Positions 3,614 to 48,900 of a stretch of 64,000 nt of DNA are shown here, piece by piece. Numbering within the stretch: position 1 is the first letter of the stretch; each line of letters starts with the position of its first letter. The notes under the pieces are model-generated. The model did not search any database, was not told the origin of the DNA, and saw only the letters and a list, made by a program, of their open reading frames with translations. The stretch is from assembly GCF_029867415.1 (NCBI RefSeq), contig NC_081185.1:47376766-47440765 (forward strand). The letters run 5' to 3'. This DNA comes from Vicia villosa. Lineage: Eukaryota; Streptophyta; Magnoliopsida; Fabales; Fabaceae. Made by a program: the position numbers and the translations under genes.

Positions 3614-3665
3614 CACCCTGCCTGTTTTTACTGGGTGAGATCTAGGGAAAGTATTTTCTGGTTCG

Positions 3666-6128: not shown

Positions 6129-6326
6129 CAATTAATTGGGGGTGGGGCCAGCATTATTTCTCTTTCCAAATCTTGGATATCATTACACATTAAAGTGCAT
6201 TTTCCCCCCCTTTTGCAAGTTACCCAAACGGTTTTCATTCCTCCAAAACCTCTCCTCCACACTCACGCTATCTCTCTGTGTTTCTGCATTCATCACTCTT
6301 TACCCAGCCTCTCATTCTCTCTCACC

Positions 6327-8675: not shown

Positions 8676-8687
8676 AAAGGGGGAGTT
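8676..8687 (+). other. Polypurine tract of element S
   Basis: AAAGGGGGAGTT lies immediately before the 3' LTR TGTAGATG. Confidence 0.9.
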
Positions 8688-9615: not shown

Positions 9616-9620
9616 GTTTG

Positions 9621-16388: not shown

Positions 16389-17198
16389 TTGTTGTAGTAT
16401 GCTTTCAAAATAAACCTTGCTTCAATTAGGGCTTTTGAAGGTTGTAACGTGGTCAGGTTCACGGTTTAAAAAACAAAAGGTATAAGGCTCAAAATTTTTG
16501 TAACCCACCCCATCTTCGTGATGATCTTCAGTCCTAAACTCAGTTAATTCAAAATATGCATTCAGGTTCTAAGAGACTTCTGCAATTTTATCTGTCGTGA
16601 TGATGATAGTTCACAAGCCAAGAAAACTTAGAGATGGCAGTCACTTTTTCCTTTTGATAGTCACAACATTTTGTGGTTCAAGAATTTATTGACTTCTCTC
16701 TATTTTCTTTCTTTTGATATCCCTAACTTTTGCCTGAACTGTTTATTTTGAAACTTACAGTCAGCGGGATGCCTTAATTTTTGCCTAAGTCATTTTTTGA
16801 TTTTGACTTAGCAGACTTTTCTTTGATTTTCTTTTTTTGATACCCTTTTTCCTGAAAGATAGTGACTACCTTGCTTAATGATTATAATGAACCATCATCG
16901 ACTTTTGCTCGGCGTTTCCAACATTTCTTTGATGTAAGCGGAGGAAAGCTTGTGATTAAAACACTTGTTAAAAGGTGCATTGAATGATTCTCCTAAAATA
17001 GAATGCACAACAAAATTAACTGGGAACTACCCTGCCCCGGGTTAAAATGTGGGTTATTTCGTACAGAAAGAAACACCAACTTCTAGGCTCAAAGGGGTTG
17101 ACGAGGGATTAACTTCCTTATTTCTCCAGTGTTTGGGAATTGAAACAATGCCTGTACATCCTCAGCAAAGTTTTATTTGAAAGCATACATTTCAACAA
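16389..17198 (-). other. Conserved nested-stem domain (candidate structured RNA), copy in A
   Basis: Paired segments, given as plus-strand positions: P1 16389-16421 with 17164-17198; P2 CAGTTAATT 16541-16549 with 17014-17022; P3a 16603-16613 with 16888-16898; P3 16636-16645 with 16861-16870; P5 16734-16742 with 16757-16764; P4 CTAAGTC 16785-16791 with GACTTAG 16805-16811. P4 and P5 are hairpins inside P3, which is inside P3a, P2 and P1. P3a and P3 each contain one pair that works only as G.U in the minus-strand (sense) RNA. No ORF. Confidence 0.7.
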
Positions 17199-22500: not shown

Positions 22501-23385
22501 GCATGCGTTGTTTACCGGCGAGTTTTGCCGGAGCTTTAGTATGCATCAGATTTTCCAGAAAGGAAGACTTTGGAGAAGGCCTTAAATCAGACATGGTGCA
22601 AAATCTTTACATCTTTGGTGGAGCTGAGAACACAACTGCAGATATATACATATGTATCGGGCAGCAAACTGTTTGATTGAGGCATAGGTTTAAGATAGCA
22701 CCATTAGCATCTTGTGTAACTTAAATATAAAACACTTGTGAATCTGTATAATTCTAACTGAAAGGCACCTTTATTTCCACCTGACTTTCCTTTTTTCTTT
22801 TTAATGTGAATGACACTTGAAGTTGTACCATAGATTTTGTATAAGCTTGGAATTCTAGTGTCTTCATTATGTAATGCACCACTTTGAGAATGACTTTGGA
22901 TGAAACTTGATAATGTCTTGGGAATGGTTAAATCTTGAATGAGCTATCAACTTAAGCTTCCTAATAACACAGAGAATGAGTTATGATCTCAAGTCCTCTT
23001 TTTGAATGATGATCGTATGTTGAATTGGAATTAAATGAAGAATTTTTGTCTTGTAGAACTATTCCATTGGATGAGCATGAGCCATTTTGGATTTTGGTGG
23101 ACTTTGATGGATAAGATCAATAAAAGCCTTGGGTGACTTTTACATTCCCATTTTAATTCTCAATGAAAACCTAAATTAAATCTCCAATTCAAGTTACCTT
23201 GTACTGCAATCAATAAGTAATTGAGAAAGTGACTAGATTCTCGACCCCATGTCCATGTTATTGATTAAATGTTATTGATTAAATGATGCATGATATGTTA
23301 ATGACCTAATGGATACATGCAAATGAAATGTGCATCTTAAGCCAATTAGAAATAAAATTAGATGGGCAAATTTTGGGGTGCAACA
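19516..23385 (-). repeat. Element B 3' LTR (3870 bp)
   Basis: Begins TGTTGCACCCCAAAATTTG at 23385 and ends ...GCGTGCGCCA at 19516. A TATA-like TCTATATATTC lies at about 21917-21927, followed by a CT-rich leader. A PBS-like TGGCGACTCTG sits near its end (19539-19549). A GC-richer stretch (21170-21260) and splice-like AG/GT words occur, but no gene was accepted. Confidence 0.92.
21917..21927 (-). promoter_or_regulatory. TATA box of the B 3' LTR
   Basis: Minus strand CCTCTATATATTCTC, about 1.46 kb from the LTR start, followed by a pyrimidine-rich leader containing (CT)n. The copy in the 5' LTR is at 42723-42733. Confidence 0.55.
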
Positions 23386-25585: not shown

Positions 25586-26440
25586 CAGTTTGTATGCTTT
25601 TAGAACGAACCCTGCTTCAATTAGGACTTTTGAGGGTTGTAACATGGTCGGGTTCACGGTTTAAGAAACAAAGGATAAAGGCTCAAGTTCTACTTAACCC
25701 ACCCCTCTTCATGATGTTCTCCAGTCCTATGTTCAGTTAGTTTGACACGAGTGTTCACCTTTCAGGAAGGATTGTGAAGGATGAGGATCCTTTGTAGCTT
25801 TGATGGAGGTGGCAGTCACCCTTTGGTTCTTCTTGTTGATGGTCATAACAACTTGTCCCTTGGAGGATTTTTGTTATTGCTCTTTTCTTTTGCTTTCCCT
25901 AACTTTTTCCTGGACAGAAAGTTTCTTTTGATTTTGGTTTTCGTTGTCCAGCGGGATATGCCCTAATTTTTGCCTAAGTCATTTGCTTCAAAGCTTTTCT
26001 TTCTTTTTGACTTAGCGGGCTATTGTCTCTTTCTTCTTTTTTTTTATCATGATTCATAACTTTCTTTTCATTCTTTTTGTCTCGTTCGGGAACAAGTTGT
26101 ATGACTTTGGTGATTGACTTGATGAAAAGGTTGTGACTGCCTTCTTCATAGTGAATGGGAGACATCCATTGTGGATTGTGCTCTTCCTTTTTTGTTGTGA
26201 GATCTGAGATATGATTGATCCTCTGATAGAATATCTGAAAGTTGAGCGCTCGGTCGCACTAACTGAAGACTACCCTGCCCCTGGTTAAGATTGAGGGTTT
26301 TGTATTTTTTTGAAAAGAAACTACTACTCCTTAGGCTCAAAGGGGTTGACGAGGGTTTCACTCCCTTATAACTCCAGTGTTTGGGAATTGAAATAATGCC
26401 TGTACATCGTTAGCAGGTTTCTTGTTCCAAAAGCATACAG
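25586..26440 (-). other. Conserved nested-stem domain (candidate structured RNA), copy in B
   Basis: Plus-strand positions: P1 25586-25616 with 26411-26440; P2 TTCAGTTAGT 25732-25741 with ACTAACTGAA 26258-26267 (10 of 10); P3 GGCAGTCAC 25811-25819 with GTGACTGCC 26133-26141 (9 of 9); P5 CTGGACA 25910-25916 with TGTCCAG 25945-25951 (7 of 7); P4 CTAAGTC 25974-25980 with GACTTAG 26009-26015. P2 and P5 differ from C on both arms yet remain fully paired. P3a is weak here (a bulged GGATG/CATCC). Non-coding. Confidence 0.72.
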
Positions 26441-26723: not shown

Positions 26724-28346
26724 TCATGGTCCACTGGTGGAAGCTCCATTGTGAGGTGGCATGGGATTGTTGACCACATTAGGTGCCACAGGTGCGAATG
26801 TAATCTCTTTTGCATCAATCAGATCCTGAACCCTGTCCTTGAGAACTCTGCATTCTTCAGTAGTGTGACCAGATCCCCCAGAGTGGAATTCACATTTGGC
26901 ATTGATCTTGTAATTTGGAGGGAGAGGATCAGGAGGAGGCCTCGCTTCTGCTAACTGAATCAGTTTGAGGTCGAGCAAGGTAGCAAGAAGTTGGCTATAA
27001 GACATTGGCACACGATCATACACCCTTTTTGGCCTATTCTGTCTCTGTTGACCTTGTCTCTGTTGATAACCTTGTTGTTGTTGTTGAACATATTGCTGAT
27101 ACGGAACCCAAGGTTGTTGACCAACAGGTGCCACATAAGCTTGAGGAGCGGTGGCGTTCACTTGATAGTAGGGAGCTTGATCTTGAGCAGAAGCAGCACT
27201 AGTCTCACCTTCTTTCTTTTTGATGAAATTACCTTGAGGTTTTTTGTACCCATATGGATTAGCAGCAGTAGCATTGGCGGGATTCTGGATCTTACCAATT
27301 TTCAAGCCATTCTCAATTCTTTCACCAATCCTAACTAGATCGGAGAAGCCAGAAGAAACACTACCCACCATCCTTTCATAGTAATGTCCTTGAAGAGTGT
27401 TCATGAACATATCAACCAGCTCGGATTCAGAAAGTGGTGGATTAACTTGAGCAGCCATTTCTCTCCACCTTTGGGCATATTCTTTGAATGTCTCATTGGT
27501 CTTTTGTGCTTGATTCTGAAGTTGCAACCTAGTCGGTGCCATGTCGATGTTGTATTGGTATTGCTTGAGAAAGGCATCATACAAATCCTTCCAAGATCGG
27601 ATCCTATTACGCTCCAGATTCATATACCAGTTCAGAGATGCCCCAGACAAGCTATCTTGAAAGCAATGGATGAGCAATGGTTCATTGTGAATGTGAGGAG
27701 CCATCTTACGACAGTACATGATAATGTGGCTCTTCGGACAGCTTAAACCCTTGTACTTCTGAAAGTCGGGAGTCTTGAACTTGGGAGGAATAACCAGATT
27801 AGGAACCAAGCACATTTCTTCAGCGTTCATCCCATAGGCACTAAAACCTTCGATAGCTCGGATCCTTTCCTCAAGAATCTTATACTTCTTAGCAGATCTC
27901 TCAATAGGTTGAGCTCTTTCAGCAGTTGGTATTGGATGCATTTCTGGATTAGCAAACTGAGGACCACAAAAAGCAGGATGAGGAACTTCTGAATGAGGAG
28001 GTGGAGTAGGAAATGGGAAAACAGGCCCAGTCATAGTTGGCACTCCAGAAGTTATGGGCATGGATCCTCCTTGGTTTAAAGCTCCAAGAGTATCAGCAGT
28101 CATGAAGCTAAATGGCATTCCAAGAGTAGCATTAGTCCTTGGTTGGAACTCAGGTGGAGTAGTAGAAGGTGGAATGACATCAGGTTGACTAGCAGCAGCT
28201 TGATTAGCATCAACGGGAACCTCTTGTGCAACAGGAATCCTTTCATTCCTCAAAGCTTGGAGGGCTTCCAAAATAGCATCAACCTTGCCCTTCATTTGGT
28301 CCACCTCTTCTCTAATGGCAGCTTGATCTTGTTCATAGTTCTCCAT
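26724..28346 (-). CDS. gag: Ogre/Tat-type Gag protein of element B
   Basis: A 540-residue protein from the ATG at 28346 (MENYEQDQ); the frame is open a further 37 codons upstream but without support. Residues about 5-35 form a short coiled coil, then a Pro/Ala-rich linker. Residues about 170-370 hold the capsid-like retrotransposon gag domain (LIHCFQDSLSGASLNWYMNL; F-L-K-Q-Y; F-K-E-Y-A-Q-R-W-R). A Gln-rich region follows, then the finger CEFHSGGSGHTTEEC (C-x2-H-x5-H-x4-C) and the tail PNVVNNPMPPHNG. In the family, Gag assembles the cytoplasmic particle and binds element RNA. No frameshift or stop is seen, although pol is absent: B could make its own particle but needs enzymes in trans. Ogre elements often carry an extra ORF1 upstream; none is found here. 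Confidence 0.9.
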   Translation of the reverse strand: MENYEQDQAAIREEVDQMKGKVDAILEALQALRNERIPVAQEVPVDANQAAASQPDVIPPSTTPPEFQPRTNATLGMPFSFMTADTLGALNQGGSMPITSGVPTMTGPVFPFPTPPPHSEVPHPAFCGPQFANPEMHPIPTAERAQPIERSAKKYKILEERIRAIEGFSAYGMNAEEMCLVPNLVIPPKFKTPDFQKYKGLSCPKSHIIMYCRKMAPHIHNEPLLIHCFQDSLSGASLNWYMNLERNRIRSWKDLYDAFLKQYQYNIDMAPTRLQLQNQAQKTNETFKEYAQRWREMAAQVNPPLSESELVDMFMNTLQGHYYERMVGSVSSGFSDLVRIGERIENGLKIGKIQNPANATAANPYGYKKPQGNFIKKKEGETSAASAQDQAPYYQVNATAPQAYVAPVGQQPWVPYQQYVQQQQQGYQQRQGQQRQNRPKRVYDRVPMSYSQLLATLLDLKLIQLAEARPPPDPLPPNYKINAKCEFHSGGSGHTTEECRVLKDRVQDLIDAKEITFAPVAPNVVNNPMPPHNGASTSGP

Positions 28347-29253
28347 GATTTTTCTTCTGTGAGCTCTTGTCAGATATCGGTGTGGAGGAATCGTCTTGAC
28401 TGATCTGATGGAGAGAAAGAGTGGTAAGAGTCTTGATAACCATGGATGCACATGCATGAATGCAAAAATGTTAATGAAGATGCAAATGTATCATAAATCA
28501 GGATCAACGATCAAGGCCTCTTGGATAACAACTTCTCATGGTCAATAAGATATGGTTGAATCCTCCAGATTCAGAGGTTCGACGTTGCTCTCTGGATAAA
28601 TAGCTTGTGCATAAGTCAAAGATGGTCGAACCCTCCAGATTCAGAGGTTCGACGTTGATTCTGATAGATAACTGATGTAGAACTTCTGTATAAGTCAAAT
28701 GTCCCAGGATCAAAGGTTCGACGTCTTTTATTGAATAGCAGAAATCCGGGTATGATGGAGGTCAAGTTTCCTGTCCCACCCCAATCTCACGGGTATGTAG
28801 TCTAGACACGGACAAGTGGTCCCTAATGGTCACCAGGGTCTACAGTTCCCATGGGGTACAAAGTGTTTGAGGCAACAAGCGTGCCAGACACAGTGTTCCA
28901 CGAAAGAACCTCGCCCAGTTGTGGTACCCCATGTCAAGCTCGATCGTAGCAAGGGCTACGGGAGTCGACATGAGCATCCACGCTAATCCTATGTGTCACT
29001 GGCCTGGGTAGTGGGCCTTTTACCTCATACAAACCCCCCACCTGCAAAACAGAACAGAAGACCCCAGGGAACACAAAATATAATCCATATGCATGATGTG
29101 CAAACAGAAATAAACATGATATGCAGGCAAAGAATAAGCATGCAAACATATATACAAGGTATAGACATAAAACAAGTAAACACCCAATAAATAAACAAAC
29201 AAACGCAGGCTAGGATCGACTCGCTAAGAATGGACCCACAATAGGTCTAGCAA
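28347..29253 (-). other. Element B leader between PBS and gag
   Basis: Non-coding. It contains three copies of a GGTTCGACGT-type block (about 28565-28725; core TCAGAGGTTCGACGTT). No ORF1 of the Ogre type is visible. Confidence 0.65.
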
Positions 29254-29275: not shown

Positions 29276-29966
29276 TGGCGCACGCTCGCGAAAATGAACA
29301 GAGTCGCCACCAATATATTTATCCCATAAAGGGAAAGGAATATCAGAAAACCTAGGATGAATAAGAACGAGGTCTTTCGACCAGAGATAAGGTACGGGAG
29401 TCGGTTACGCGAGGGGAAGGTGCTAGCACCCCTCACGCCCATCGTACTCGATGGTATCCACCTATGTTTGTTTCTATCTAAAGGGTGTGTACTATAAATC
29501 TAAAGCTCAAAGAAAATGAAAGAAAAGAAACACGGGGAAAATAAGGTTTATAAATAATTGTGCTCGCTTAGGCCCCGCGACCTAATGCCTACGTATCCTT
29601 TTCAGGAATCAGAGCGCCGTAGTTCGGCTCTTTAGTTTTTGCTTGTTTTTGTATTTTTTAGTGGACGAAGTTACATTCGCACTCCGCTGCTCGACCTCTG
29701 GAGTCTTAAGCTGGGAATGGAGCGGAAATAACGTGTCCGATTAAAGAATGCCTCGGAGGCGAGATAGAGAAAAGAGTTTGAGCGTTCAAGTTGCACCCTA
29801 AAGCAAGGGAGACTCGAGTTGCTCTTTGGTTTGTGTTTTTTAGAATTTGGGAACTTACGCCCGAATGGTTCCCTAAAGCAAGGGAGATCCAAGCACTCGA
29901 ATGATTCCCTAAAGCAAGGGAGATTCAAGCTTCCATTCCCTTTTTAATGATTTTCACTTTGATTAT
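29276..29966 (-). repeat. Element B 5' LTR, segment 1 (U5 end)
   Basis: Matches 19516-20206 of the 3' LTR. Interrupted by C; TSD ATTAT at 29962-29966 and 40988-40992. PBS-like TGGCGACTCT at 29300-29309 (minus strand). Confidence 0.93.
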
Positions 29967-30227
29967 TGTCATACCCCAATTTTTGACCCTAAGATCATAC
30001 CTCATTTGCATATCAATCATCAATCAAGAGTTTCATCTTAAAGCTCTGCTCTCGGTGTTATGCTCACTTCATCTATAAGAGGGATCATCAAACACCAATG
30101 TTTTTCTACTTGTATATGTTTTACTAACAAAAATACCAAAAATATTGCCTCGTGCTTTTGTATGTTTGTGTTTTGTAGGTACCAAGTCAAAGTATCCTTC
30201 AAAAAGGGCATTTTTCAACATTTTCAC

Positions 30228-30412
30228 TGTGCAAATCGATTTGCATAAGGTGTAAATCGATTTACACAACTGTTTCTGCACCAGATTTGCTTCTGCCATC
30301 AGTGCAAATCGATTTGCATAAGGTGCAAATCGATTTACATAACTGTTTTTTTCCCAGATTTTGCCTTTTTCAGCTATGTAAATAGATTTGCATAAAGTGT
30401 AAATCGATTGCA
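30228..30412. repeat. AAATCGATTT palindrome cluster 1 (5' LTR of C)
   Basis: Six units. Four are good 16-mers such as TGCAAATCGATTTGCA and TGTAAATCGATTTACA, set in pairs separated by TAAGG; two are degenerate. The copy in the 3' LTR is at about 37960-38144. Confidence 0.9.
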
Positions 30413-30651
30413 CCAGTACGAATTTGGAAAAATGAAGGCAAATTTCAGCTTTTGAAAGTGTTGACATCATTTGCAAGCATGGGAAGCATGACTTAGTTCT
30501 TACATTTGATTTCCTACATCATTTTATCATGAGCCCTCATGTGATTGCATCAAGACCATTGGATTTCATTTTTGGCTCCAAATCACTTTTCCAAGCCTAA
30601 TTCTATTTTCCAATCCTAACTCCAAGCCACAAAAATTCCCAAGCCTAGCTC

Positions 30652-30659
30652 CTATAAAT
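30652..30659 (+). promoter_or_regulatory. TATA box of the C 5' LTR
   Basis: CCTATAAATTGAGGC followed by a CT-rich leader (CTCTTCATTTTTC). The 3' LTR copy is at 38384-38391. Confidence 0.7.
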
Positions 30660-31105
30660 TGAGGCATTCCCCTCTTCATTTTTCAAGCTTTGATAGCCAA
30701 GAAACTTATTGCAAATTCTCTCCTCACCTCTTCCAAACCCATCACTCAAAGCTCTTTCTCTTCCACACAAATTAGTGAGTCACATCTTGAACCTCACTAA
30801 TTTAGAGCTAAACCTCAACATAAACACTACTTTTCTTCATCAATTGTGAGAGATCAAGGCTTGTGGTTTTGTGTTCTTGAAGAAGATTAAAAGTTTGTGA
30901 AAGATTTGGTAAAATTCTAGATCCAATCCATAATTCAAGATGTGATCCATTGTTGTTTATGCTTGATGCACCTTTGGTGTTATATTGATGAGATTTGCTT
31001 GCTTACTTGATACATTTTCGTGCACAAATTGATCCAAGATCACAAGGTGTTTGGTTTTATGTTTAAACAAGTTTTCTTCTCTTTATTTGCTGTTTTTTTG
31101 AAAAC

Positions 31106-31225
31106 TGTGTTATGCAAATCGATTTACATCTTGTGCAAATCGATTTACACAACTGAAAACTGCGCAGATTTTGAAAACAGAGTTGTGCAAATCGATTTAC
31201 ACTCTGTGCAAATCGATTTACACTG
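31106..31225. repeat. AAATCGATTT palindrome cluster 2 (5' LTR of C)
   Basis: Four units of TGCAAATCGATTTACA type, downstream of the TATA and so probably transcribed. The copy in the 3' LTR is at about 38838-38957. Confidence 0.9.
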
Positions 31226-33262
31226 GGCAGAATGCTGATTTTTTGTAGTTTTTGACTTGTTTTTGGTTCTAACTCATCTTCTACTCCATTCTTTTGATAT
31301 TTTCTTTGAATCACAAGTTAGAGGCCTAATTTCTCTCTAATTTCAATGGACTTAGGGCGTTGATAGGATGAGAATCCAAATCCGCAATATTAAGTGATTG
31401 AAATTATGGATGAAAGGAGCTTTTAATGTGGTTCCATCTTTTACTTCTTTTTATTTTGGTCGATGAAAGTCTTAATGCCTTGAGAATTCTTATGGATTCT
31501 TGGTAAAGACTAGATCACTCACCTATTTTCTCTTCGTGCGGTATTGCTTTCGGAAGGCGATCTACATATCGTTCTTCTCGCATGCATTAGCACATAAAGT
31601 TTTGACCGGCCTCGTTGTAGGGTGATTTCTATATAAATCACTTGGCGATCTGCTTAACATAGCGCAATATTTCGTGTCCCGAATAAAAAAGATCAAATAT
31701 GGAAGAGAATTGTATGCGGTTGATTTAAGACTTGTGGAGGTTTTTATCGTGTAGTCGCTATGATTTTATCAAGCTTCTGATAAGCCCCATTGACTTTAAA
31801 TCCGAGTACATCATTCACTCACCATTGATCTCCTACTAACTTTGATAACATACTTGACAAGCTTCAAGATGGTTATCTTTAACATTTAACAACTAACTTT
31901 AATTTCCGCACCTTTACTATATCGTTCTTTATATTACCGCTCTTTATATTACCGCTCTTTATATTTCTCGCTTTATCGCTTTATTTTATCATTTCATCAT
32001 ATTTACTTTCCGTCATTTTTTCTTTTGTCCACCTGGACCATACTCTATTTTTCTTGCTAAAACACTAATAAATAATCAAAAATCTAAAAAATACATAAGG
32101 TTCTCTTTGGACTATCAGTTACTATCCCTAGCAATTTGGAGATTCGGACTTATGGACCTAGTACCTTTGGACTCATTCTATTACTATCCTGTGATTGTTC
32201 TGTCTGTCTGGCATTGTTCTGTTGTATGTTTATGTGTGCAGGTATTTCCTTGAAAGCCCTTGATGGTTAATTCCAAGGCATTGAGATAAGGATTTTACCC
32301 AAAAACAGCCGTTACTCTGCCCAATTTTTGTCAGAATCTTAATGTGCTTAATGAAAAAATGGTGCTAAGATAATAAGTTCATCTGGATCCCCAAGTGTTA
32401 ATGTGTTGGTATTGATAAATCCAAAGGATGGGAAAATTACCTTGGCTCTTAATGTCAAGTGTTGGCTTCTTATTCGGTTAGACCGTTTCTTTCCTTAGCT
32501 TTTATTTTATGCATTAGGTTAGCCTCTTCATCTCCTCCCATTCTTAAATTTTCAAAATCTTCTCCCTTTTTCCAAAATATTCTTATGTTTGCAAATCTTT
32601 TCAAAACCTTTTTCTTAAAAATATCTTTCGCCCTTAGTGGCTTTTCTTCAAAAGTTTAGACACCGTTAATTGTCGAAACGAGTGGTTATACCCCACGATT
32701 TTGAAATTGATTGATAATAACGAGATCTTTTCCGCGTGAGAGAGCTAGTGGCATACTCGTTGATTTTATCCGAGTTGGCGCCCTTCTTTCATTTGCGATG
32801 CAAAGAACTTGTTTGTTCTCATGCTCAAGATCAATGGCTGAGTATTTCTCTCTAACGACAACAAAGTGTTTATTCGTTTTAAAACGTTTTTTCCAAAAGC
32901 GGAACTACATTAGCTCTGACTTCTCCATTGCACCGAGGAGGTATGTAGGCACAAGGCTTAACGTCTTGCCGAGCTTATTTTAAAAATAAAACAAACTCGT
33001 TTTTTAGCACACACACAACACAGATTTTCAAAAAGGTTCCCGTGGAGTACCACGGATATGAGGGGTGCTTTAAACCTTCCCCTCATATAATCAACACCCG
33101 AACCTGAGTTCTCTTTCTTGTTTTAAAAAACAAAACTTTGGGTTTTACGTTCTTTTCCCTTTTCCTTTGAAGAAAATAAAGCGCGGTGGCGATTTCAAAC
33201 GAAATATTGATTCGAGTCAATCTCATGGCTTCGATGTCAGATTTTCCCCGCTACAGAAAAAA

Positions 33263-34758: not shown

Positions 34759-35582
34759 TTGTTGAACTGTATGCTTTCGAATAAAACTTTGCTGATGATG
34801 TACAGGCATTGTTTCAATTCCCAAACACTGGAGAAATAAGGAAGTTAATCCTTTGTCAACCCCTCTGAGCCTTCGAAGTTGGAGTTTCTTTCTGTATGAA
34901 AAACCCGCATTTTTAACCTGGGGCAGGGTAGTTCTCAGTTAATTTGGCTGTGCGTTCTATTTTAAGAGAATCATTCAGTACACCTTTCAACAAGTGCTTC
35001 AATCACAAGCTTTCCTCCGCATACATCAAAGAACTGTTGGAGATGTCAATCAAAAGCCAATGATGGTTCATCAATCATTAAGCAAGGCAGTCACTATCTT
35101 TCAAAAAAAAAATATGTATCAAAAAAATATATATATATATATACAAAGAAAAGCCTGCTAAGTCAAAACCAAAAACGACTTAGGCAAAAATAAGGGCATC
35201 CCGCTGACTGTAAATGCAAAAATAAACAGTTCAGGCAAAAGTTAGGGATATCAAAAGAAAAAGATGAAAAAAGAGAAGTCAATAAATTCCTCAAGCAACA
35301 AAATGTTGTGACAACAAAAAGGAAGAAGTGACTGCCATCTCAAAAGTTCTCTTTGCTTGTGAGCTATCATCATTATAAAGATGCAATTCCAGAAGCCTCT
35401 TGGAACCTGAATGCATAAGTTGAATTAACTGAGTTGTAGGACTGGAGATCATCACGAAGGGGGTGGGAACAATCAAATTTTGTGCCTTATATCCTTTGTT
35501 TCTTAAACCGTGAACCAGACCACGTTACAACCTTTAAAAGACCTAATTGAAGCAAGGTTTGTTTGAAAGCATACTACAACAA
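34759..35582 (+). other. Conserved nested-stem domain (candidate structured RNA), copy in C
   Basis: P1 34759-34793 with 35551-35582; P2 CTCAGTTAAT 34934-34943 with ATTAACTGAG 35424-35433 (10 of 10); P3a ATGATGGTTCA 35060-35070 with TGAGCTATCAT 35360-35370 (11 of 11 with two G.U); P3 GGCAGTCACT 35086-35095 with AGTGACTGCC 35327-35336 (10 of 10); P4 CTAAGTC 35158-35164 with GACTTAG 35177-35183; P5 CTGACTGT 35204-35211 with ACAGTTCAG 35226-35234 (one bulge). All arms are nested in order. Starts about 310 bp after the gag stop. No ORF. Confidence 0.75.
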
Positions 35583-36450
35583 GGTTGCGTAAGCTGACTA
35601 CCATGAGATTTTCCAATCATTTGTTTTGATATCATGCCTTCGCTTTATCTTTCACTTTGAATGTCTTAACCTTTATGTTTTGACCAATGATTCCATTTCC
35701 TTTACATCAATAACATCATTCCAATAATGATTTTGATTTCAAAAATATTCTTTGAGCATTGCATTAAAATTACCATTCTTGAATGAACATTTTATTTGCA
35801 AGTAAGCACTCATCTTTCAGGAAGTTCAAACAGTTGAGAAACTTGATCAGTGGTCCTATCAGGGGCACGTTACTTCAAGATCCTGTTGTTCAGATGTTCA
35901 TTCAAGATTTGTTGATCAGAATATCATTTCAAGACTTGTACTGGGGCAAGCCATCCCAACATGCATTTAAAGAATTGAAGCCATGATCAGTTCATCCCAA
36001 ATATAGTTCAACTGAAGCCATGATCAGTTAACTTACAACAATCACTCAATCAGGGGCAATCTTCTTCAGCAATCCCCAAGCAGTTTTATCAGCCCTTCTC
36101 AAAAGATCATTGTTTTGATACAGTTACCGGTGTAATAGAAGTGTGTTTAAGCATCTTCTTCCCAAGCAGAGTTGGCAGAGTTCTCGTGTTGAGGAATCAG
36201 AGTTTTAATCTTGCCTCACAAAAGAGTCTCCCTCAGTTGTCACAAACAATTGCATTGCATTGATCATATATCATGCATAGAAAAATTCAACATCATGCAT
36301 TGAAACAAATTTCATACTCATTTGCATTTTTCGAGGTCCTGTTGCTATCAACATCTTCACCTTGAGATCAAAACAGATACTTGTTTGTCTTGTCTGTCTA
36401 GTGTTGTTCCTAGATGTATCTTTTATTCTTTTAGTGTCATTCCTGAAAGA
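35583..36450 (+). other. Element C spacer between structured domain and array
   Basis: Non-coding counterpart of A 15591-16388. Nothing else seen. Confidence 0.6.
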
Positions 36451-37042
36451 TCGCCACCATGTTTTATCTTGGTTCCCTTCAATCATGTTTTATCTTGATT
36501 GTCTCTGATCATGCTTTATCCCGATCGCCACCATGTTTTATCTTGGTTCCCTTCAATCATGTTTTATCTTGATTGTCTCTGATCATGCTTTATCCCGATC
36601 GCCACCATGTTTTATCTTGGTTCCCTTCAATCATGTTTTATCTTGATTGTCTCTGATCATGCTTTATCCCGATCGCCACCATGTTTTATCTTGGTTCCCT
36701 TCAATCATGTTTTATCTTGATTGTCTCTGATCATGCTTTATCCCGATCGCCACCATGTTTTATCTTGGTTCCCTTCAATCATGTTTTATCTTGATTGTCT
36801 CTGATCATGCTTTATCCCGATCGCCACCATGTTTTATCTTGGTTCCCTTCAATCATGTTTTATCTTGATTGTCTCTGATCATGCTTTATCCCGATCGCCA
36901 CCATGTTTTATCTTGGTTCCCTTCAATCATGTTTTATCTTGATTGTCTCTGATCATGCTTTATCCCGATCGCCACCATGTTTTATCTTGGTTCCCTTCAA
37001 TCATGTTTTATCTTGATTGTCTCTAATCATGCTTTATCTTGA
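36451..37042 (+). repeat. 74-bp tandem array of element C (8 near-identical units)
   Basis: Unit starts fall at 36451, 36525, 36599, 36673, 36747, 36821, 36895 and 36969, exactly 74 bp apart. Each unit is three sub-repeats of ATCATGTTTTATCTTGAT type (CAATCA ... TGATTG arms). Near-complete unit identity implies very recent amplification. Confidence 0.95.
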
Positions 37043-37440
37043 TCGCTTTCAACCGTGTTTTATCTTGGTTACCTCCAATCATGTTTTACCTTGATTGTCA
37101 TTTGATGTTATCCAATCATGTTTTACCTTGATTATCCCTTAATGACATCCAATCATGTTTTACCTTGATGGACCTGTGATGATTATCTAATCATGTTTTA
37201 CCTTGATTGTCCGTTGATGATTATCCAATCATGTTTTACCTTGATTATCCTTTGACGATATCCAATCACGTTTTACCTTGATTGTAAGTTGGTGTTGCCT
37301 AATCACGTTTTACCTTGATTGTCATTTGATGTTGTCCAATCATGTTTTACCTTGATATTCAATGGATGTAGCCACATTCATGTAGGCCTCAAATATTCTC
37401 TTCTCGAAGTTCAATCATGTTTTATCTTGAAAGCTTCTGT
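37043..37440 (+). repeat. Degenerate part of the C array
   Basis: About ten diverged units of roughly 40 bp with CAATCATGTTTTACCTTGAT cores, the older form of the 74-bp array and the sense-strand counterpart of A 15090-15590. Confidence 0.88.
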
Positions 37441-37698: not shown

Positions 37699-40600
37699 TG
37701 TCATACCCCAATTTTTGACCCTAAGATCATACCTCATTTGCATATCAATCATCAATCAAGAGTTTCATCTTAAAGCTCTGCTCTCGGTGTTATGCTCACT
37801 TCATCTATAAGAGGGATCATCAAACACCAATGTTTTTCTACTTGTATATGTTTTACTAACAAAAATACCAAAAATATTGCCTCGTGCTTTTGTATGTTTG
37901 TGTTTTGTAGGTACCAAGTCAAAGTATCCTTCAAAAAGGGCATTTTTCAACATTTTCACTGTGCAAATCGATTTGCATAAGGTGTAAATCGATTTACACA
38001 ACTGTTTCTGCACCAGATTTGCTTCTGCCATCAGTGCAAATCGATTTGCATAAGGTGCAAATCGATTTACATAACTGTTTTTTTCCCAGATTTTGCCTTT
38101 TTCAGCTATGTAAATAGATTTGCATAAAGTGTAAATCGATTGCACCAGTACGAATTTGGAAAAATGAAGGCAAATTTCAGCTTTTGAAAGTGTTGACATC
38201 ATTTGCAAGCATGGGAAGCATGACTTAGTTCTTACATTTGATTTCCTACATCATTTTATCATGAGCCCTCATGTGATTGCATCAAGACCATTGGATTTCA
38301 TTTTTGGCTCCAAATCACTTTTCCAAGCCTAATTCTATTTTCCAATCCTAACTCCAAGCCACAAAAATTCCCAAGCCTAGCTCCTATAAATTGAGGCATT
38401 CCCCTCTTCATTTTTCAAGCTTTGATAGCCAAGAAACTTATTGCAAATTCTCTCCTCACCTCTTCCAAACCCATCACTCAAAGCTCTTTCTCTTCCACAC
38501 AAATTAGTGAGTCACATCTTGAACCTCACTAATTTAGAGCTAAACCTCAACATAAACACTACTTTTCTTCATCAATTGTGAGAGATCAAGGCTTGTGGTT
38601 TTGTGTTCTTGAAGAAGATTAAAAGTTTGTGAAAGATTTGGTAAAATTCTAGATCCAATCCATAATTCAAGATGTGATCCATTGTTGTTTATGCTTGATG
38701 CACCTTTGGTGTTATATTGATGAGATTTGCTTGCTTACTTGATACATTTTCGTGCACAAATTGATCCAAGATCACAAGGTGTTTGGTTTTATGTTTAAAC
38801 AAGTTTTCTTCTCTTTATTTGCTGTTTTTTTGAAAACTGTGTTATGCAAATCGATTTACATCTTGTGCAAATCGATTTACACAACTGAAAACTGCGCAGA
38901 TTTTGAAAACAGAGTTGTGCAAATCGATTTACACTCTGTGCAAATCGATTTACACTGGGCAGAATGCTGATTTTTTGTAGTTTTTGACTTGTTTTTGGTT
39001 CTAACTCATCTTCTACTCCATTCTTTTGATATTTTCTTTGAATCACAAGTTAGAGGCCTAATTTCTCTCTAATTTCAATGGACTTAGGGCGTTGATAGGA
39101 TGAGAATCCAAATCCGCAATATTAAGTGATTGAAATTATGGATGAAAGGAGCTTTTAATGTGGTTCCATCTTTTACTTCTTTTTATTTTGGTCGATGAAA
39201 GTCTTAATGCCTTGAGAATTCTTATGGATTCTTGGTAAAGACTAGATCACTCACCTATTTTCTTTTCGTGCGGTATTGCTTTCGGAAGGCGATCTACATA
39301 TCGTTCTTCTCGCATGCATTAGCACATAAAGTTTTGACCGGCCTCGTTGTAGGGTGATTTCTATATAAATCACTTGGCGATCTGCTTAACATAGCGCAAT
39401 ATTTCGTGTCCCGAATAAAAAAGATCAAATATGGAAGAGAATTGTATGCGGTTGATTTAAGACTTGTGGAGGTTTTTATCGTGTAGTCGCTATGATTTTA
39501 TCAAGCTTCTGATAAGCCCCATTGACTTTAAATCCGAGTACATCATTCACTCACCATTGATCTCCTACTAACTTTGATAACATACTTGACAAGCTTCAAG
39601 ATGGTTATCTTTAACATTTAACAACTAACTTTAATTTCCGCACCTTTACTATATCGTTCTTTATATTACCGCTCTTTATATTACCGCTCTTTATATTTCT
39701 CGCTTTATCGCTTTATTTTATCATTTCATCATATTTACTTTCCGTCATTTTTTCTTTTGTCCACCTGGACCATACTCTATTTTTCTTGCTAAAACACTAA
39801 TAAATAATCAAAAATCTAAAAAATACATAAGGTTCTCTTTGGACTATCAGTTACTATCCCTAGCAATTTGGAGATTCGGACTTATGGACCTAGTACCTTT
39901 GGACTCATTCTATTACTATCCTGTGATTGTTCTGTCTGTCTGGCATTGTTCTGTTGTATGTTTATGTGTGCAGGTATTTCCTTGAAAGCCCTTGATGGTT
40001 AATTCCAAGGCATTGAGATAAGGATTTTACCCAAAAACAGCCGTTACTCTGCCCAATTTTTGTCAGAATCTTAATGTGCTTAATGAAAAAATGGTGCTAA
40101 GATAATAAGTTCATCTGGATCCCCAAGTGTTAATGTGTTGGTATTGATAAATCCAAAGGATGGGAAAATTACCTTGGCTCTTAATGTCAAGTGTTGGCTT
40201 CTTATTCGGTTAGACCGTTTCTTTCCTTAGCTTTTATTTTATGCATTAGGTTAGCCTCTTCATCTCCTCCCATTCTTAAATTTTCAAAATCTTCTCCCTT
40301 TTTCCAAAATATTCTTATGTTTGCAAATCTTTTCAAAACCTTTTTCTTAAAAATATCTTTCGCCCTTAGTGGCTTTTCTTCAAAAGTTTAGACACCGTTA
40401 ATTGTCGAAACGAGTGGTTATACCCCACGATTTTGAAATTGATTGATAATAACGAGATCTTTTCCGCGTGAGAGAGCTAGTGGCATACTCGTTGATTTTA
40501 TCCGAGTTGGCGCCCTTCTTTCATTTGCGATGCAAAGAACTTGTTTGTTCTCATGCTCAAGATCAATGGCTGAGTATTTCTCTCTAACGACAACAAAGTG

Positions 40601-40987
40601 TTTATTCGTTTTAAAACGTTTTTTCCAAAAGCGGAACTACATTAGCTCTGACTTCTCCATTGCACCGAGGAGGTATGTAGGCACAAGGCTTAACGTCTTG
40701 CCGAGCTTATTTTAAAAATAAAACAAACTCGTTTTTTAGCACACACACAACACAGATTTTCAAAAAGGTTCCCGTGGAGTACCACGGATATGAGGGGTGC
40801 TTTAAACCTTCCCCTCATATAATCAACACCCGAACCTGAGTTCTCTTTCTTGTTTTAAAAAACAAAACTTTGGGTTTTACGTTCTTTTCCCTTTTCCTTT
40901 GAAGAAAATAAAGCGCGGTGGCGATTTCAAACGAAATATTGATTCGAGTCAATCTCATGGCTTCGATGTCAGATTTTCCCCGCTACA
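37699..40987 (+). repeat. Element C 3' LTR (3289 bp)
   Basis: Same length as, and nearly identical to, the 5' LTR, offset by 7732 bp. Ends CTACA, followed by TSD ATTAT. PBS-like TGGCGATTTC at 40919-40928. Confidence 0.95.
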
Positions 40988-40992
40988 ATTAT

Positions 40993-42625
40993 TAATGTTT
41001 TATTAAGTGTTTTCTTTGTATTTTTTAAAGGAATTTTATTTTGATATTTATTAGATGTTTTAATGTTGAAAAGGAAAAGAAACTAGCCTAAGTATGAAGG
41101 GAATTTCTACCTAATGTTATCATGGTTTCTACCTAAGGTTAGGAATCAAAGAATATGAAAATAAAGATCACAATTAGAAGTCAACAAGTAGGATACACGA
41201 AAATAGTACAAGAGCATGAAATAGAACAAGTCAAAATATAGCACAAAAGTGAATTAAAAGTACTATTATTTTTATTGGTTTTTATGAAATGAATTGAATT
41301 ACAAGTCAAGTAAAAAGACTAAAAAACAAATAACCTAAAAACTAATATTTTTTATGATTATTTTTTATATGACAAAAATTGTATCAAAGGTTTAAAATTC
41401 TAACAATGGAGATTAGTATTTTTATTGGGTTTTATTATGAAAGAAGCTAATTCTAAGCATAAATCAAACGGGCCCAGGGGTGCACATTGAATTTGAAACT
41501 GTGAATAGTATCAGGGGCGCAGGGCCCAGAGAACTTGGCCCAAGGGCGTTTTGTTACAGATTTTTATCATGCCAAAAAGTGGTGATGGGCCCGAGGGGGT
41601 GTGTGATTAGTGATCAGGCCCAGGATATTATTGTTACAATTTTTTTTATTCAGCACCAAAAGAGTGGTACGATGGGCTTAGATGGGGTGAAGAAGCGTGA
41701 TTCGTTTGGCCCAAGAAATTGTTATAGTCCAAGTTCAGATTTCATTCAATATCCATTAATAAAATTTCGCATTTAAACCTAACTAATAACAATTAATCAG
41801 ACTTTATGGTACCATTAATCAGGTTTATTTCACATTCAATCTTAAATTAAAAAGATGAAAAAGGATGAATTAAAATAAAATAAAAAATAATTATGAAAAG
41901 GGGATTTTAGGGTTTGCAATGTGACTATCCTGTTATGACTCTCAGACTCAACTCTCTCTTGTCTCGCGAACGAGACGGCGGCGGTGATTCTCTCCAATCC
42001 CTCCTCCGCCGTGAATAAACAATCAACTCACCATCTCACTCTCAGATCCTCCGTCTATCGCCGTCTATCATCTCCCTGAGTCTAAAACTAATAGAAACAA
42101 AACCCTAAGATCCTCATAGTCCGATTACAAGGTGAAGGTGGCGAATCAGAGCTTGATACCTTGGGGTTATGAATCGGAACGGCTCATTTTGCATCGCGAC
42201 ATGAAGAAGAGTTGAAGAAAATGGCATAAAGAGGAAGTTGGAAGGGGTTACCTGGTATGAAGATCGATAGCGGAAGAACAGAAGTCCAGAGGAGAAGTCC
42301 CGATGCTCTTGAATGCGAAATAAACGCAAAGGATGAAGCCACTCCTCAGGCACGAATTCAGGTACTCTCGTTTTCGCCAATTCTTCTTCTTCTTCTTTCA
42401 AAGCCTCTTTCTTTGAGATGTTGTTTTTGTGTATCGTGAGGACTGAGAGGTTGAGCACGAGCTTGTTGAGGCTCTAATGTTGAGCTTCAACAGCTTTGTG
42501 GATGTGCGTGTAGTAAGGGCGAGGGTGATGAATTTGCAGAAAGTGTGAGGTTGGTGATGAATTGCAGGTGGTGAAGAGAAGAGATGAAGGTGGTGATGAG
42601 ATTGAAGAAGATGAATTGAAGAATG

Positions 42626-42670
<45 letters not shown>

Positions 42671-44193
42671 GAAATGGAGAGTGTGAATGGTGTCTAGAAA
42701 CTGATAATCGTGGAGGTGATGAGAATATATAGAGGTTGAGAGAGTAGAATTCAGTTGAAGGAGGAGATTCTGAGCCATTGGATTAGAGGGAGTTAGTTAT
42801 GAGATCAAGGGTGAGGATTGAGTTAAGTGGAGAGGTTAGTTACATTCTGTTATAGGTTGTTATGTAGGTTAGTTAGGTTGAAATGAAAACTGTTAGAAAG
42901 TGAGGAAAAGTTAGTTAGGGGAATTGTAGTTAGTTTTCTGTTTGAGTTTGGTTATAGTCAGTTATATATCAGTAAGAAAACCGTTCCATTTAATTAACAG
43001 GCTAGTTTGAATGTCACTGATTTTGAACAAACTATGTGGTGATGAGTAATGCTGAATTAAGTGGCTGATTTCTTTTCTTGAATTCTGGATTCAAATTTTC
43101 CTGTAGAAATAGGCTGCTTGCACTTCATTTGATTCTTGCTTGCCTTGAACCTGTGTTATGAGCTGTTTCTTCTGATTTTTTTTTATTTGTTCTTGTTGTG
43201 CAATGCTGGACTGTTGTGTGCAGGGACTATTAGCAGGGCTGAATCATGAGACTGAAATTGATTTTTTTTGTTTTGATATGCAGGTTCTGATTTGCACTTG
43301 AATTGGTGGCATGCGTTGTTTACCGGCGAGTTTTGCCGGAGCTTTAGTATGCATCAGATTTTCCAGAAAGGAAGACTTTGGAGAAGGCCTTAAATCAGAC
43401 ATGGTGCAAAATCTTTACATCTTTGGTGGAGCTGAGAACACAACTGCAGATATATACATATGTATCGGGCAGCAAACTGTTTGATTGAGGCATAGGTTTA
43501 AGATAGCACCATTAGCATCTTGTGTAACTTAAATATAAAACACTTGTGAATCTGTATAATTCTAACTGAAAGGCACCTTTCTTTCCACCTGACTTTCCTT
43601 TTTTCTTTTTAATGTGAATGACACTTGAAGTTGTACCATAGATTTTGTATAAGCTTGGAATTCTAGTGTCTTCATTATGTAATGCACCACTTTGAGAATG
43701 ACTTTGGATGAAACTTGATAATGTCTTGGGAATGGTTAAATCTTGAATGAGCTATCAACTTAAGCTTCCTAATAACACAGAGAATGAGTTATGATCTCAA
43801 GTCCTCTTTTTGAATGATGATCGTATGTTGAATTGGAATTAAATGAAGAATTTTTGTCTTGTAGAACTATTCCATTGGATGAGCATGAGCCATTTTGGAT
43901 TTTGGTGGACTTTGACGGATAAGATCAATAAAAGCCTTGGGTGACTTTTACATTCCCATTTTAATTCTCAATGAAAACCTAAATTAAATCTCCAATTCAA
44001 GTTACCTTGTACTGCAATCAATAAGTAATTGAGAAAGTGACTAGATTCTCGACCCCATGTCCATGTTATTGATTAAATGTTATTGATTAAACGATGCATG
44101 ATATGTTAATGACCTAATGGATACATGCAAATGAAATGTGCATCTTAAGCCAATTAGAAATAAAATTAGATGGGCAAATTTTGGGGTGCAACA
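40993..44193 (-). repeat. Element B 5' LTR, segment 2 (U3 side)
   Basis: Continues 29276-29966 after removal of C and one TSD. Total 3892 bp against 3870 bp in the 3' LTR; the difference is mostly a longer (GA)n run at about 42628-42668. Begins TGTTGCACCCC at 44193. Confidence 0.93.
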
Positions 44194-45970
44194 AAATGGA
44201 CAAAGAAAAATAGCGGAAACATAAATAATACGTCCAAATGGACAAAGAAAAAATAGCAGAAACATAAATAATATGTCCAAATGGACAAAGAAAAATAGCG
44301 GAAACATAAATAATACGTCCAAATGGACAAAGAAAAAATAGCAGAAATATAAATAATATGTCCAAATGGACAAAGAAAAAATAGCAGAAATATAAATAAT
44401 ATGTCCAAATGGACAAAGAAAAAATAGCAGAAATATAAATAATATGTCCAAATGGACAAAGAAAAAATAGCAGAAATATAAATAATATGTCCTAATGGAC
44501 AAAGAAAAAAATATGAGAAATATAAATAATATGTCCAAATGGACAAAGAAAAAATAGCAGAAATATAAATAATACGTCCAAATGGACAAAGAAAAAATTG
44601 CAGAAATATAAATAATATGTCCAAATGGACAAAGAAAAAATAGCAGAAATATAAATAATATGTCCAAATGGACAAAGAAAAAATAGCAGAAATATAAATA
44701 ATATGTCCAAATGGACAAAGAAAAAATAGTAGAAATATAAATAATATGTCCAAATGGACAAAGAAAAAAATAGCACAAATATAAATAATATGTCCAAATA
44801 GACAAAGAAAAAATAGCAGAAATATAAATAATATGTCCAAATGGACAAAGAAAAAATAGCAGAAATATAAATAATATGTCCAAATGGACAAAGAAAAAAT
44901 AGCAGAAATATAAATAATATGTCCAAATGGACAAAGAAAAAAAAAAGACAGAAACATAAATAATATGTCCAAATGGACAAAGAAAAAATGACAGAAACAT
45001 AAATAATATGTCCAAATGGACAAAGAAAAAAAACAGAAACATAAATAATATGTCCAAATGGACAAAGAAAAAAATGACAGAAACATAAATAATATGTCCA
45101 AATGGACAAAGAGAAAATAACAGAAACATAAATTATATGAATGATAAAATAAAGTATAAAGCAAGAAATATAAAGAACAATATAATAAAATGCGGAATTT
45201 AAAGTTAATTGTTAGTATGTTAGCACGCGAATCATCTTGAAGCTAGTCAAGTATATCCACGATGTTAGTAAAGATCGATGGTGAGTGAATGATGATCTCG
45301 GATTTAAAGTTAATGAAAATTTACCAGAAGCTTGATAGAATCATAGCGACTACACGATAAATTTCCAAAAGTCTTAAATCAACTGCATACAATCTCTGCC
45401 ATATTTGATCTTTTATTCCAATTCTGGACAAAGGAAAAAGATAAGAAATAATATCAAATAATATACAAAAATAAATATAAAACAAATTAAACTTAATTCA
45501 TTCTTTTTGTGATTTTTTGGAATTGATTTTAAGTTAATTAACAAGCTAATTAAACAAATAATTATACAAATAATTAAAATTAACAAGAAAAATATTATTT
45601 TATATGTCAAAAATTAGATTATAAAAAATATAAAGCTAAATCTAAAAGGAAAATATTTTTGGAGTTTTTTGATTGGATGAAAATAATTAAAAAAAAGCAA
45701 TATTTACATAATTACTAATTAATTAAGCAAAATAAATTAATTATGAAAAAGAAATAAAATATTTTTATGTTAAAAATTAAATAAACATTTTATCTTCTTA
45801 AAACTAAAATTAAAACATTTTTTTTGAGAAATTGAAAATATGCATAAATATGGAGTTTTTAATTCATGAACTCCTAACACTACTACATATTAAAAATTAC
45901 ATTGTACTTACTCTATGATGTCCCAAGAGTGAAATAGAGTGATTGAAATTGATTGAAAGTGGCTATTTGA
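44077..45970. repeat. 1.9-kb tandem duplication, copy 1
   Basis: Repeated at 45972-47865 with period 1895 and no difference noticed. The unit joins the last 117 bp of the B LTR to A LTR sequence (array plus AT-rich part), so it arose after B inserted. One extra T at 45971 marks the junction. Confidence 0.92.
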
Positions 45971-48900
45971 TATGTTATTGATTAAACGATGCATGATATG
46001 TTAATGACCTAATGGATACATGCAAATGAAATGTGCATCTTAAGCCAATTAGAAATAAAATTAGATGGGCAAATTTTGGGGTGCAACAAAATGGACAAAG
46101 AAAAATAGCGGAAACATAAATAATACGTCCAAATGGACAAAGAAAAAATAGCAGAAACATAAATAATATGTCCAAATGGACAAAGAAAAATAGCGGAAAC
46201 ATAAATAATACGTCCAAATGGACAAAGAAAAAATAGCAGAAATATAAATAATATGTCCAAATGGACAAAGAAAAAATAGCAGAAATATAAATAATATGTC
46301 CAAATGGACAAAGAAAAAATAGCAGAAATATAAATAATATGTCCAAATGGACAAAGAAAAAATAGCAGAAATATAAATAATATGTCCTAATGGACAAAGA
46401 AAAAAATATGAGAAATATAAATAATATGTCCAAATGGACAAAGAAAAAATAGCAGAAATATAAATAATACGTCCAAATGGACAAAGAAAAAATTGCAGAA
46501 ATATAAATAATATGTCCAAATGGACAAAGAAAAAATAGCAGAAATATAAATAATATGTCCAAATGGACAAAGAAAAAATAGCAGAAATATAAATAATATG
46601 TCCAAATGGACAAAGAAAAAATAGTAGAAATATAAATAATATGTCCAAATGGACAAAGAAAAAAATAGCACAAATATAAATAATATGTCCAAATAGACAA
46701 AGAAAAAATAGCAGAAATATAAATAATATGTCCAAATGGACAAAGAAAAAATAGCAGAAATATAAATAATATGTCCAAATGGACAAAGAAAAAATAGCAG
46801 AAATATAAATAATATGTCCAAATGGACAAAGAAAAAAAAAAGACAGAAACATAAATAATATGTCCAAATGGACAAAGAAAAAATGACAGAAACATAAATA
46901 ATATGTCCAAATGGACAAAGAAAAAAAACAGAAACATAAATAATATGTCCAAATGGACAAAGAAAAAAATGACAGAAACATAAATAATATGTCCAAATGG
47001 ACAAAGAGAAAATAACAGAAACATAAATTATATGAATGATAAAATAAAGTATAAAGCAAGAAATATAAAGAACAATATAATAAAATGCGGAATTTAAAGT
47101 TAATTGTTAGTATGTTAGCACGCGAATCATCTTGAAGCTAGTCAAGTATATCCACGATGTTAGTAAAGATCGATGGTGAGTGAATGATGATCTCGGATTT
47201 AAAGTTAATGAAAATTTACCAGAAGCTTGATAGAATCATAGCGACTACACGATAAATTTCCAAAAGTCTTAAATCAACTGCATACAATCTCTGCCATATT
47301 TGATCTTTTATTCCAATTCTGGACAAAGGAAAAAGATAAGAAATAATATCAAATAATATACAAAAATAAATATAAAACAAATTAAACTTAATTCATTCTT
47401 TTTGTGATTTTTTGGAATTGATTTTAAGTTAATTAACAAGCTAATTAAACAAATAATTATACAAATAATTAAAATTAACAAGAAAAATATTATTTTATAT
47501 GTCAAAAATTAGATTATAAAAAATATAAAGCTAAATCTAAAAGGAAAATATTTTTGGAGTTTTTTGATTGGATGAAAATAATTAAAAAAAAGCAATATTT
47601 ACATAATTACTAATTAATTAAGCAAAATAAATTAATTATGAAAAAGAAATAAAATATTTTTATGTTAAAAATTAAATAAACATTTTATCTTCTTAAAACT
47701 AAAATTAAAACATTTTTTTTGAGAAATTGAAAATATGCATAAATATGGAGTTTTTAATTCATGAACTCCTAACACTACTACATATTAAAAATTACATTGT
47801 ACTTACTCTATGATGTCCCAAGAGTGAAATAGAGTGATTGAAATTGATTGAAAGTGGCTATTTGAATGAGTCTTGATTTTTACAAGTTTCTCGAAACTTT
47901 TGCAAAAAAATATAAACTTAAGCTATGACTTTGTGGTGATTGTTGTTGTTCTTTGTGTTCCTCCCCCTTTTTTTCCTCTCTTGAATGAAGAAAATGAAGC
48001 TCTATTTATAGGCAAATGATTTGATCTTGAACCCTTGCAAGTTGGAATTTTCATGATTGATTTTGTGGAAAAAATATGATAATGGAATATTTTCAATGAG
48101 TGCATTTCTTAACCATGGTTAAAACATTCAAGTATTATTCTCTTCAATCTTGCAATAATATATTTAAGCATCTTGAATGATCATTGCTTGCATCACATGA
48201 GCATCTTGGATAATATCTTTGAATTATCTCACTTTAATTAAACTTTAAATGAATAAAATTTAATTAAAATGAAATAAAAGTGTCATGAATCATGGATAGG
48301 TCGTGGATGCCCTTTAGACATATGGGAATCAAGATTGAATCACAAAAGAATTGGCCTTTTTGAAAAAAAAATCAAATTTTGGTCATTACTTGTTTCATTC
48401 ATTTTTCCAAAAAGGGTCAACTTCATTAAGGCATATCTCCCTCAATTTTGATCCTATGAAAGTGTTCTTTTACTTTTTGGAAAGCCCAAGATGTCCTCTA
48501 CAAGCCACTTTGGAAGCGTTTTTGCATTTGGAGAAGTTATCTTGATGATATGGGCTTTGACAAAAAAACTGCTTTTTGTTGACTTTGAAAATGACCTGTA
48601 ATGTTTTGGCTTATATCTCTTAGGCGGAAGCATTTCTTGACCTTGGTCCCAACATCAAAGTTGTAGAGAATTGAATTTCCTTGAGAATAAGATTTGATTG
48701 GAATTTTTCTGATAAATTATGAGAGAGTTATGGTCGGTCAAAGTTCAGTTGACTTTTAGGTAAAAAACTCTAATTTTGCAATTTTGAGTTTTGTCGATTT
48801 CTGAACTTTTCTTGATGAATTATGATCAACCATTGATCACATGATGAATCTTTTGACAAAATATGGATGTTGACAAAAAATTGCATTTTTGACTGTCTGT

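Follow-up and report, generated by a model that had tools for sequence, protein, structure and literature searches.

To our knowledge, the packaging and copying of the RNAs of plant non-autonomous LTR elements are poorly known. LARDs are elements of the gypsy type and reportedly entered the literature with a 2004 paper by Kalendar, and TR-GAG elements consist of LTRs and gag without pol. A hypervariable 3' UTR is said to have been described by Macas in 2009. The CTE of MPMV is a folded-RNA export element. In LARDs such as Sukkula, which are non-autonomous LTR elements, the non-coding core specifies well-conserved RNA secondary structures, according to a passage of PMC7215508, and non-autonomous Ogre elements of Lathyrus that lack pol carry tandem arrays close to GAG, as a passage of PMC7004042 describes. 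The RNA of the parasitic element BARE2 is packaged in BARE1 particles, and the authors invoke conserved dimerisation and packaging signals (a passage of PMC3735527). The RTE of IAP and the MTE of musD are cis-acting elements of LTR elements in the account given by a passage of PMC12786077.

Here we analyzed a window of 64,000 nucleotides from the vetch Vicia villosa, in which four elements (A to D) share a non-coding domain. Like LARDs, the vetch elements are non-autonomous LTR elements with conserved RNA structure, a likeness drawn from description only, and among elements of this kind LARDs are the closest precedent for a conserved structure. In contrast to LARDs, which encode no protein, the vetch elements keep gag (open in element B and in other copies), and their structure is a single module of 0.7-0.9 kb located 3' of gag. 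With LTRs and gag and no pol they resemble TR-GAG elements. They share with Ogre (Tat lineage, Ty3/gypsy) long LTRs with a target duplication (C, 3289 bp, ATTAT; B, 3870 bp), a gypsy-type gag, assigned by PF03732 alone, and tandem repeats in the 3' non-coding region, but differ from it in being without pro-pol. The signals of BARE2 are not known to reach the size of the vetch domain. BARE2 is likewise non-autonomous and, in the passage referred to above, its RNA is packaged in trans; it differs in being copia rather than gypsy and in lacking Gag, whereas the vetch elements lack Pol. The resemblance to CTE, RTE and MTE is that of a folded RNA and is one of description. A conserved structured domain goes unmentioned in the passage of PMC7004042 on the gag-only Lathyrus Ogre elements, and we found no published description of the vetch domain in the open-licence PMC literature. 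The first-pass annotation of this DNA had known of no described counterpart in Ogre elements. Within that literature the statement holds for Ogre; it does not carry over to LARDs, for which conserved RNA structures have been described (a passage of PMC7215508).

The elements of the window and the architecture of the domain

Repeat positions indicate threefold nesting at 9987-50556 of the window: element C sits in the 5' LTR of B, and B in turn sits in that of A. Element C lies on the forward strand between LTRs at 29967-33255 and 37699-40987 and is flanked by the target duplication ATTAT. Its two LTRs differ by only one mismatch in 3289 bp, indicating that the element is young. The 3' minisatellite of C (36449-37356, forward strand) is composed of 74- and 37-bp units. 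Element B, on the reverse strand, has a 3' LTR of 3870 bp at 19516-23385 and a 5' LTR that is interrupted by element C (29276-29966 plus 40988-44193); by eye, B is surrounded by an AAATG target duplication. The gag of B is an open frame of 588 codons from stop to stop (26727-28490, reverse strand), and PF03732 matches its 577-aa ORF (E 1.1e-16). This is the only long gag frame within the window: the gag of A is a 127-codon remnant, that of D would fall past the end of the window, and among the ORFs of the window element C has no sense frame of more than 102 codons. A tblastn search located a gag match upstream of the domain in L001, L009 and L039, which are the copies of C, B and D in the window. 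The window ORFs include no second long sense frame besides gag in B and no long sense frame in C.

Other repeats were noted in the window. A copia-type LTR element occupies 2669-9618, with LTR-like repeats (2669-3599 and 8688-9618) that are 99.5% identical; one of its frames matches Retrotran_gag_2 and Pol_BBD, and a second frame of 707 aa is hit by PF20167 ('Transposase_32') but by none of the pol families. The LTR of A contains a 2-kb tandem duplication (43959-47878, 97.3%) with long arrays of a 43-bp minisatellite, and palindrome-like repeats with the core AAATCGATTT are present in both LTRs of C (30229-30409 and 31184-31224, and the same places in 37961-38956).

The domain itself is non-coding, 0.7-0.9 kb long and located on the gag side of the 3' minisatellite. 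It spans 34759-35582 in C, on the forward strand, and 16389-17198 in A, 25586-26440 in B and 62889-63678 in D, all on the reverse strand; its orientation relative to the element is the same in all four. These positions are supported by alignment and folding, together with genome searches for C, B and D, the last a mosaic discussed below. Alignment of the four domains in the sense direction yielded one nested structure, consisting of P1, P2, P3a, P3, P4 and P5. The first-pass annotation had placed the domain at these coordinates in all four elements, between gag and the 3' minisatellite, and had proposed this same nested order with a weak P3a in B. The alignment and the strands confirm the former, RNAalifold of the sense alignment returns the latter, and the weakness of P3a in B can be seen in the four-sequence structure. 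For the four window sequences, RNAalifold predicts 166 pairs, 19 of them with two-sided changes, with a small covariation term (-5.1 of -106.2 kcal/mol).

In element C, where all positions are on the forward strand, P1 pairs 34769-34793 with 35551-35574, and these arms co-vary between families. P1 has 23 pairs in the structure used for testing, and single-sequence folds of C and A contain five further outer pairs. The hairpin motif GATGTACAGGCATT at 34797-34810 is identical in eight representative copies from six families. P2 pairs 34930-34952 with 35414-35443, P3a pairs 35060-35071 with 35359-35370 (outside the covariation test described below), and P3 pairs GGCAGTCA at 35086-35093 with 35329-35336. 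P3 also exists in B, as GGCAGTCA/TGACTGCC, where the alignment has slipped (26134-26141 with 25811-25818). The hairpins P4 (35153-35197) and P5 (35198-35249) are those of the four-sequence structure. No Rfam family matched within the window at the gathering score. We considered and rejected a protein-coding domain, since the short frames of the 5' arm, compared by eye, stop at differing places in the families, and the families differ by many amino-acid changes. The GATGTACAGGCATT hairpin motif, at 34797-34810 and in the representative copies of the other families, contains the 6-nt palindrome TGTACA; that two RNA molecules could contact each other at this palindrome is only a guess.

Genome-wide copies and their context

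To place these four copies in the genome, we searched 2,034,964,285 bases in 1,888 contigs. With up to 3 mismatches allowed, the 5'-arm motif, a pattern built on GATGTACAGGCATT, has 18,251 matches and its reversed control none; the 3'-arm motif was found at 17,999 places and its reversed control at one. Of 65 exact 5' motifs in the first 20.2 Mb of C1, 50 are followed on the same strand, after 573-756 nt, by an exact 3' motif; an exact 3' motif lies upstream on the same strand for none of the 65, and on the opposite strand within 3 kb for one. Searches with the domains of C, B and D were read from the best 40 of 6,384, 6,167 and 5,367 candidates, respectively. For the C domain, the other 39 of the best 40 scored copies are 93-95% identical.

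We then compared the surroundings of 68 copies, including three from the window. Elsewhere in the analysis, 6 duplicate domain copies were removed from a set of 72 rows. Sequence of the copy's own element is found on both sides of the domain in 66 of the 68, and on one side only in L066 and L068. In 64 of the 68 a gag match ends 254-373 nt upstream of the domain (median 310), a distance that leaves no pol frame between gag and the domain; no upstream gag match was found in the remaining copies, L003, L007, L030 and L066. PF03732 was detected in four of five upstream frames of copies from families C, D and B, and the fifth frame (L058) matched no family. A motif like CTGACTCCT occurs downstream of the domain in all eight representative copies shown, and by eye none of these eight has a direct repeat flanking the domain. 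The domain is integral to the elements and is no stray insertion.

The domain is also present in families other than those of the window. We sampled 20 of 100 listed places in the first 33 Mb of C1, a sample that includes rarer letter variants and is not strictly random. Two D-like loci (L076 and L082), taken as stretches too short to span the domain, were left out, and the 18 copies with the whole domain were assigned as 12 D-like, 1 A, 1 C, 1 B, 3 E and 1 F. Families E and F are new, domain-bearing and located outside the window. In the 9.9-kb surroundings of an E copy, a gag frame of 482 codons is followed by the domain, and a gag match was not found in the similar-sized surroundings of the F copy. 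Five patterns detected no domain copies in viral contigs, and the C domain was not found in plasmids.

As far as seen, the copies are gag-only, in agreement with the first-pass description of the elements as lacking pol. Having no pro-pol (RT, RNase H, archaeal RNase H or integrase), they are at most non-autonomous, Ogre-like elements. In the first 33 Mb of C1, none of 12 pol-domain hits (7 RVT_3 and 5 H2C2, many of which may not be Ogre pol) has, among the exact matches listed, an arm motif of its own strand within 141 kb downstream. This is a weak comparison, made by position only and with exact motifs, for which the listed 3'-arm matches reach 20.4 Mb. One of the 7 RVT_3 hits lies in a frame of more than 600 codons.

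Covariation, strand and conservation

To examine covariation, we used 15 copies of six families, hand-picked from 84, and 77 of the 166 RNAalifold pairs (P1, P2, P3, P4 and P5, with P3a and smaller local stems excluded); the tested stems were thus those of the four-window-copy structure. Across these copies 92.9% of 1,132 cells are paired, and sliding the partner by 1-3 columns reduces pairing to only 25.4-42.7%. Two-sided changes are found in 19 of the 77 pairs, compared with a shuffled mean of 11.1 (1 of 500 shuffles was as high), and in 48 cells, compared with a shuffled mean of 17.1 (none of 500 shuffles was as high). There was no excess of further pair types over shuffles (297/500). One P1 pair is seen as UA, AU, CG and GU. 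P4 and P3 contribute little covariation: P3 has a two-sided change in one of 8 pairs, and in P4 the upper 8 pairs include 5 invariant and no two-sided pairs and the lower 4 include 2 two-sided pairs. In P5 the outer 4 pairs are invariant, and among the inner 8 two-sided changes occur in 2.

Further support is provided by a pairing test based on 720 permutations of the family labels. Own-family energies were calculated for arms taken from different copies, except in F (a single copy), using at most 12 copies per family having both arms; per arm, 1-11 of the 84 copies were without an anchor. Own-family arms pair more stably than mixed arms in P1 (-30.2 vs -23.8 kcal/mol), P2 (-24.3 vs -17.1 kcal/mol) and P5 (-13.1 vs -10.6 kcal/mol), and the true assignment ranks first of the 720 for P1, first for P2 and second for P5. 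Complementarity outside P1, for which both flanks were found in 73 of 84 copies and at most 12 per family were used, has no clear own-family advantage. With 41 of 720 permutations as good, an outer extension of P1 was rejected as having no clear support. In a separate comparison, cells in which both sides had changed were paired at 0.43-0.78, compared with 0.30-0.60 expected; the same analysis gave no excess for D to C, and G-U vs A-C counts that went in both directions. Overall, the excess of two-sided changes and the better pairing of own-family arms bear out the large structured RNA proposed in the first-pass annotation, and we consider it very probable that the domain is a structured RNA under selection. 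Because the arms have changed in step in six families, the domain probably acts as a signal in the form of folded RNA.

The minimum free energy (MFE) of the domain is lower than that of 20 out of 20 dinucleotide shuffles in all four window copies (z of -4.6 in C, -3.1 in A, -3.9 in D and -6.5 in B). A repeat with 30-nt flanks and 30 shuffles gave smaller z values (-2.6 in C, -2.4 in A, -3.2 in D and -4.3 in B), and two tested E copies barely fold better than shuffles (z of -0.4 and -1.5). The summed energy of P1, P2 and P5 is -67.6 kcal/mol on the sense strand vs -59.2 kcal/mol on the antisense strand. Whole-domain MFE is lower on the sense strand in 8 of 9 copies of C, 30 of 40 of D and 1 of 2 of A, and in none of 29 copies of B, 3 of E and 1 of F. 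In families E and F, which were not used for the structure, G-U outnumbers A-C at paired sites by 30 to 15 over all stems and by 18 to 13 in the long-range stems, which is modest strand evidence for RNA. We favor RNA over DNA because of the stems and their context in a transcribed retroelement; whole-domain MFE gives no such support.

To compare conservation between families, each family was represented by a single domain copy, and B, C, D and E also by a single gag frame. At four-fold sites of gag (48-108 sites per pair), D and E share 59% identity, and every other pairing among B, C, D and E shares 31-40%. The arms are 71-90% identical in all 15 family pairs (0.71-0.90 for the 5' arm, 0.71-0.88 for the 3' arm), and are conserved far beyond the silent sites of gag. 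The middle of the domain is 50-89% identical between families, with 12 of the 15 pairs at 50-66%, and the 30-40 nt just outside P1 are 34-58% identical upstream and 39-64% downstream, A-C and D-E excepted.

The mosaic domain of element D and possible functions

Gag (76% of amino acids), outer arms and flanks all make D and E sister families. Divided into 16 windows of 40 columns, the interior of the D domain (columns 161-800, approximately P2 to P2) matches C at 0.78-0.95 in 15 and at 0.54 in one, and matches E at 0.50-0.88 in the 13 windows with enough E letters. One of the outer windows is even (0.83 and 0.85), and all the others place D closer to E. Judged by its sequence, the domain of D is a mosaic of E-like outer arms and a C-like interior bounded by P2, and this interior has probably been swapped between families. 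The pattern would fit template switching between RNAs packaged together, the usual route of such exchange; the mosaic could also stem from gene conversion at the DNA level, or from decay of the E interior with those of A, C and D preserved by constraint.

We tentatively favor the domain as a cis-acting folded RNA module of the gag-only, Ogre-like Ty3/gypsy transcript, serving as a packaging or dimerisation signal. The rod formed by P1 and P2 would offer conserved unpaired motifs to a protein, for which Gag/nucleocapsid is the likeliest candidate. By signalling encapsidation and/or dimerisation, the domain would bring the RNA into particles with a helper-supplied polymerase, and the D mosaic may be a trace of RNAs of two families sharing one particle. 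We rank this role first on three grounds: an element without pol depends on a helper, the mosaic points to shared particles, and the trans-packaging of BARE2 sets a precedent; nuclear export would come second. Counting against a packaging role, known packaging signals are usually located near the 5' leader and the start of gag.

An element for nuclear export or RNA stability like the animal CTE, RTE and MTE, by which unspliced genomic RNA leaves the nucleus, is a possible but rather unlikely alternative. It would suit the 3' non-coding position and the large RNA fold with its conserved loops, and mouse IAP and musD carry such elements (a passage of PMC12786077), but that passage names no plant LTR element of the kind, and the structural evidence is the same as for packaging, with nothing specific to export. 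We regard as unlikely a signal for replication or expression, acting in strand transfer, in control of the stop codon or of splicing, or in recruitment of a helper reverse transcriptase. The domain does occupy the place that pol takes behind gag in full elements; a gag match ends a short distance upstream in 64 of 68 copies, and none of the 12 pol-domain hits on C1 has a listed arm match within the downstream distance given above. However, the pol comparison covers exact matches listed only and many of its hits are perhaps not Ogre pol, and the sequence offers no visible mechanism. Equally doubtful is a module specific to pol-less elements that hijacks the reverse transcriptase and integrase of a helper, one that would replace pol, be absent from autonomous Ogre and be swapped as a P2-bounded unit.

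That the domain is a passive remnant, its arms conserved by exchange between families alone and their pairing incidental, appears improbable: at least one exchange is likely (the interior of D), but exchange would spread identity evenly, whereas the middle falls well below both arms in 12 of 15 family pairs, and within each family the arms fit their partners. An independent MITE-like or foldback DNA insertion with P1 as its terminal repeats, the alternative raised in the first-pass annotation, was checked and can be set aside as highly improbable, since despite TIR-like ends and conservation borders that are sharp at P1, the copies are embedded in element sequence on both sides (66 of 68) at a site constant relative to gag, the CTGACTCCT-like motif recurs downstream with no flanking direct repeat by eye in the eight representative copies, and the inner stems also co-vary.

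Packaging or dimerisation remains our tentatively preferred role for the domain. As a discrete, covarying RNA domain present in about 18,000 copies and observed in six families, it is a defined piece to delete, probe and transplant. If it is a mobilisation signal, it would help explain how pol-less elements filled vetch genomes, and mosaics such as that of D would record which families shared particles.
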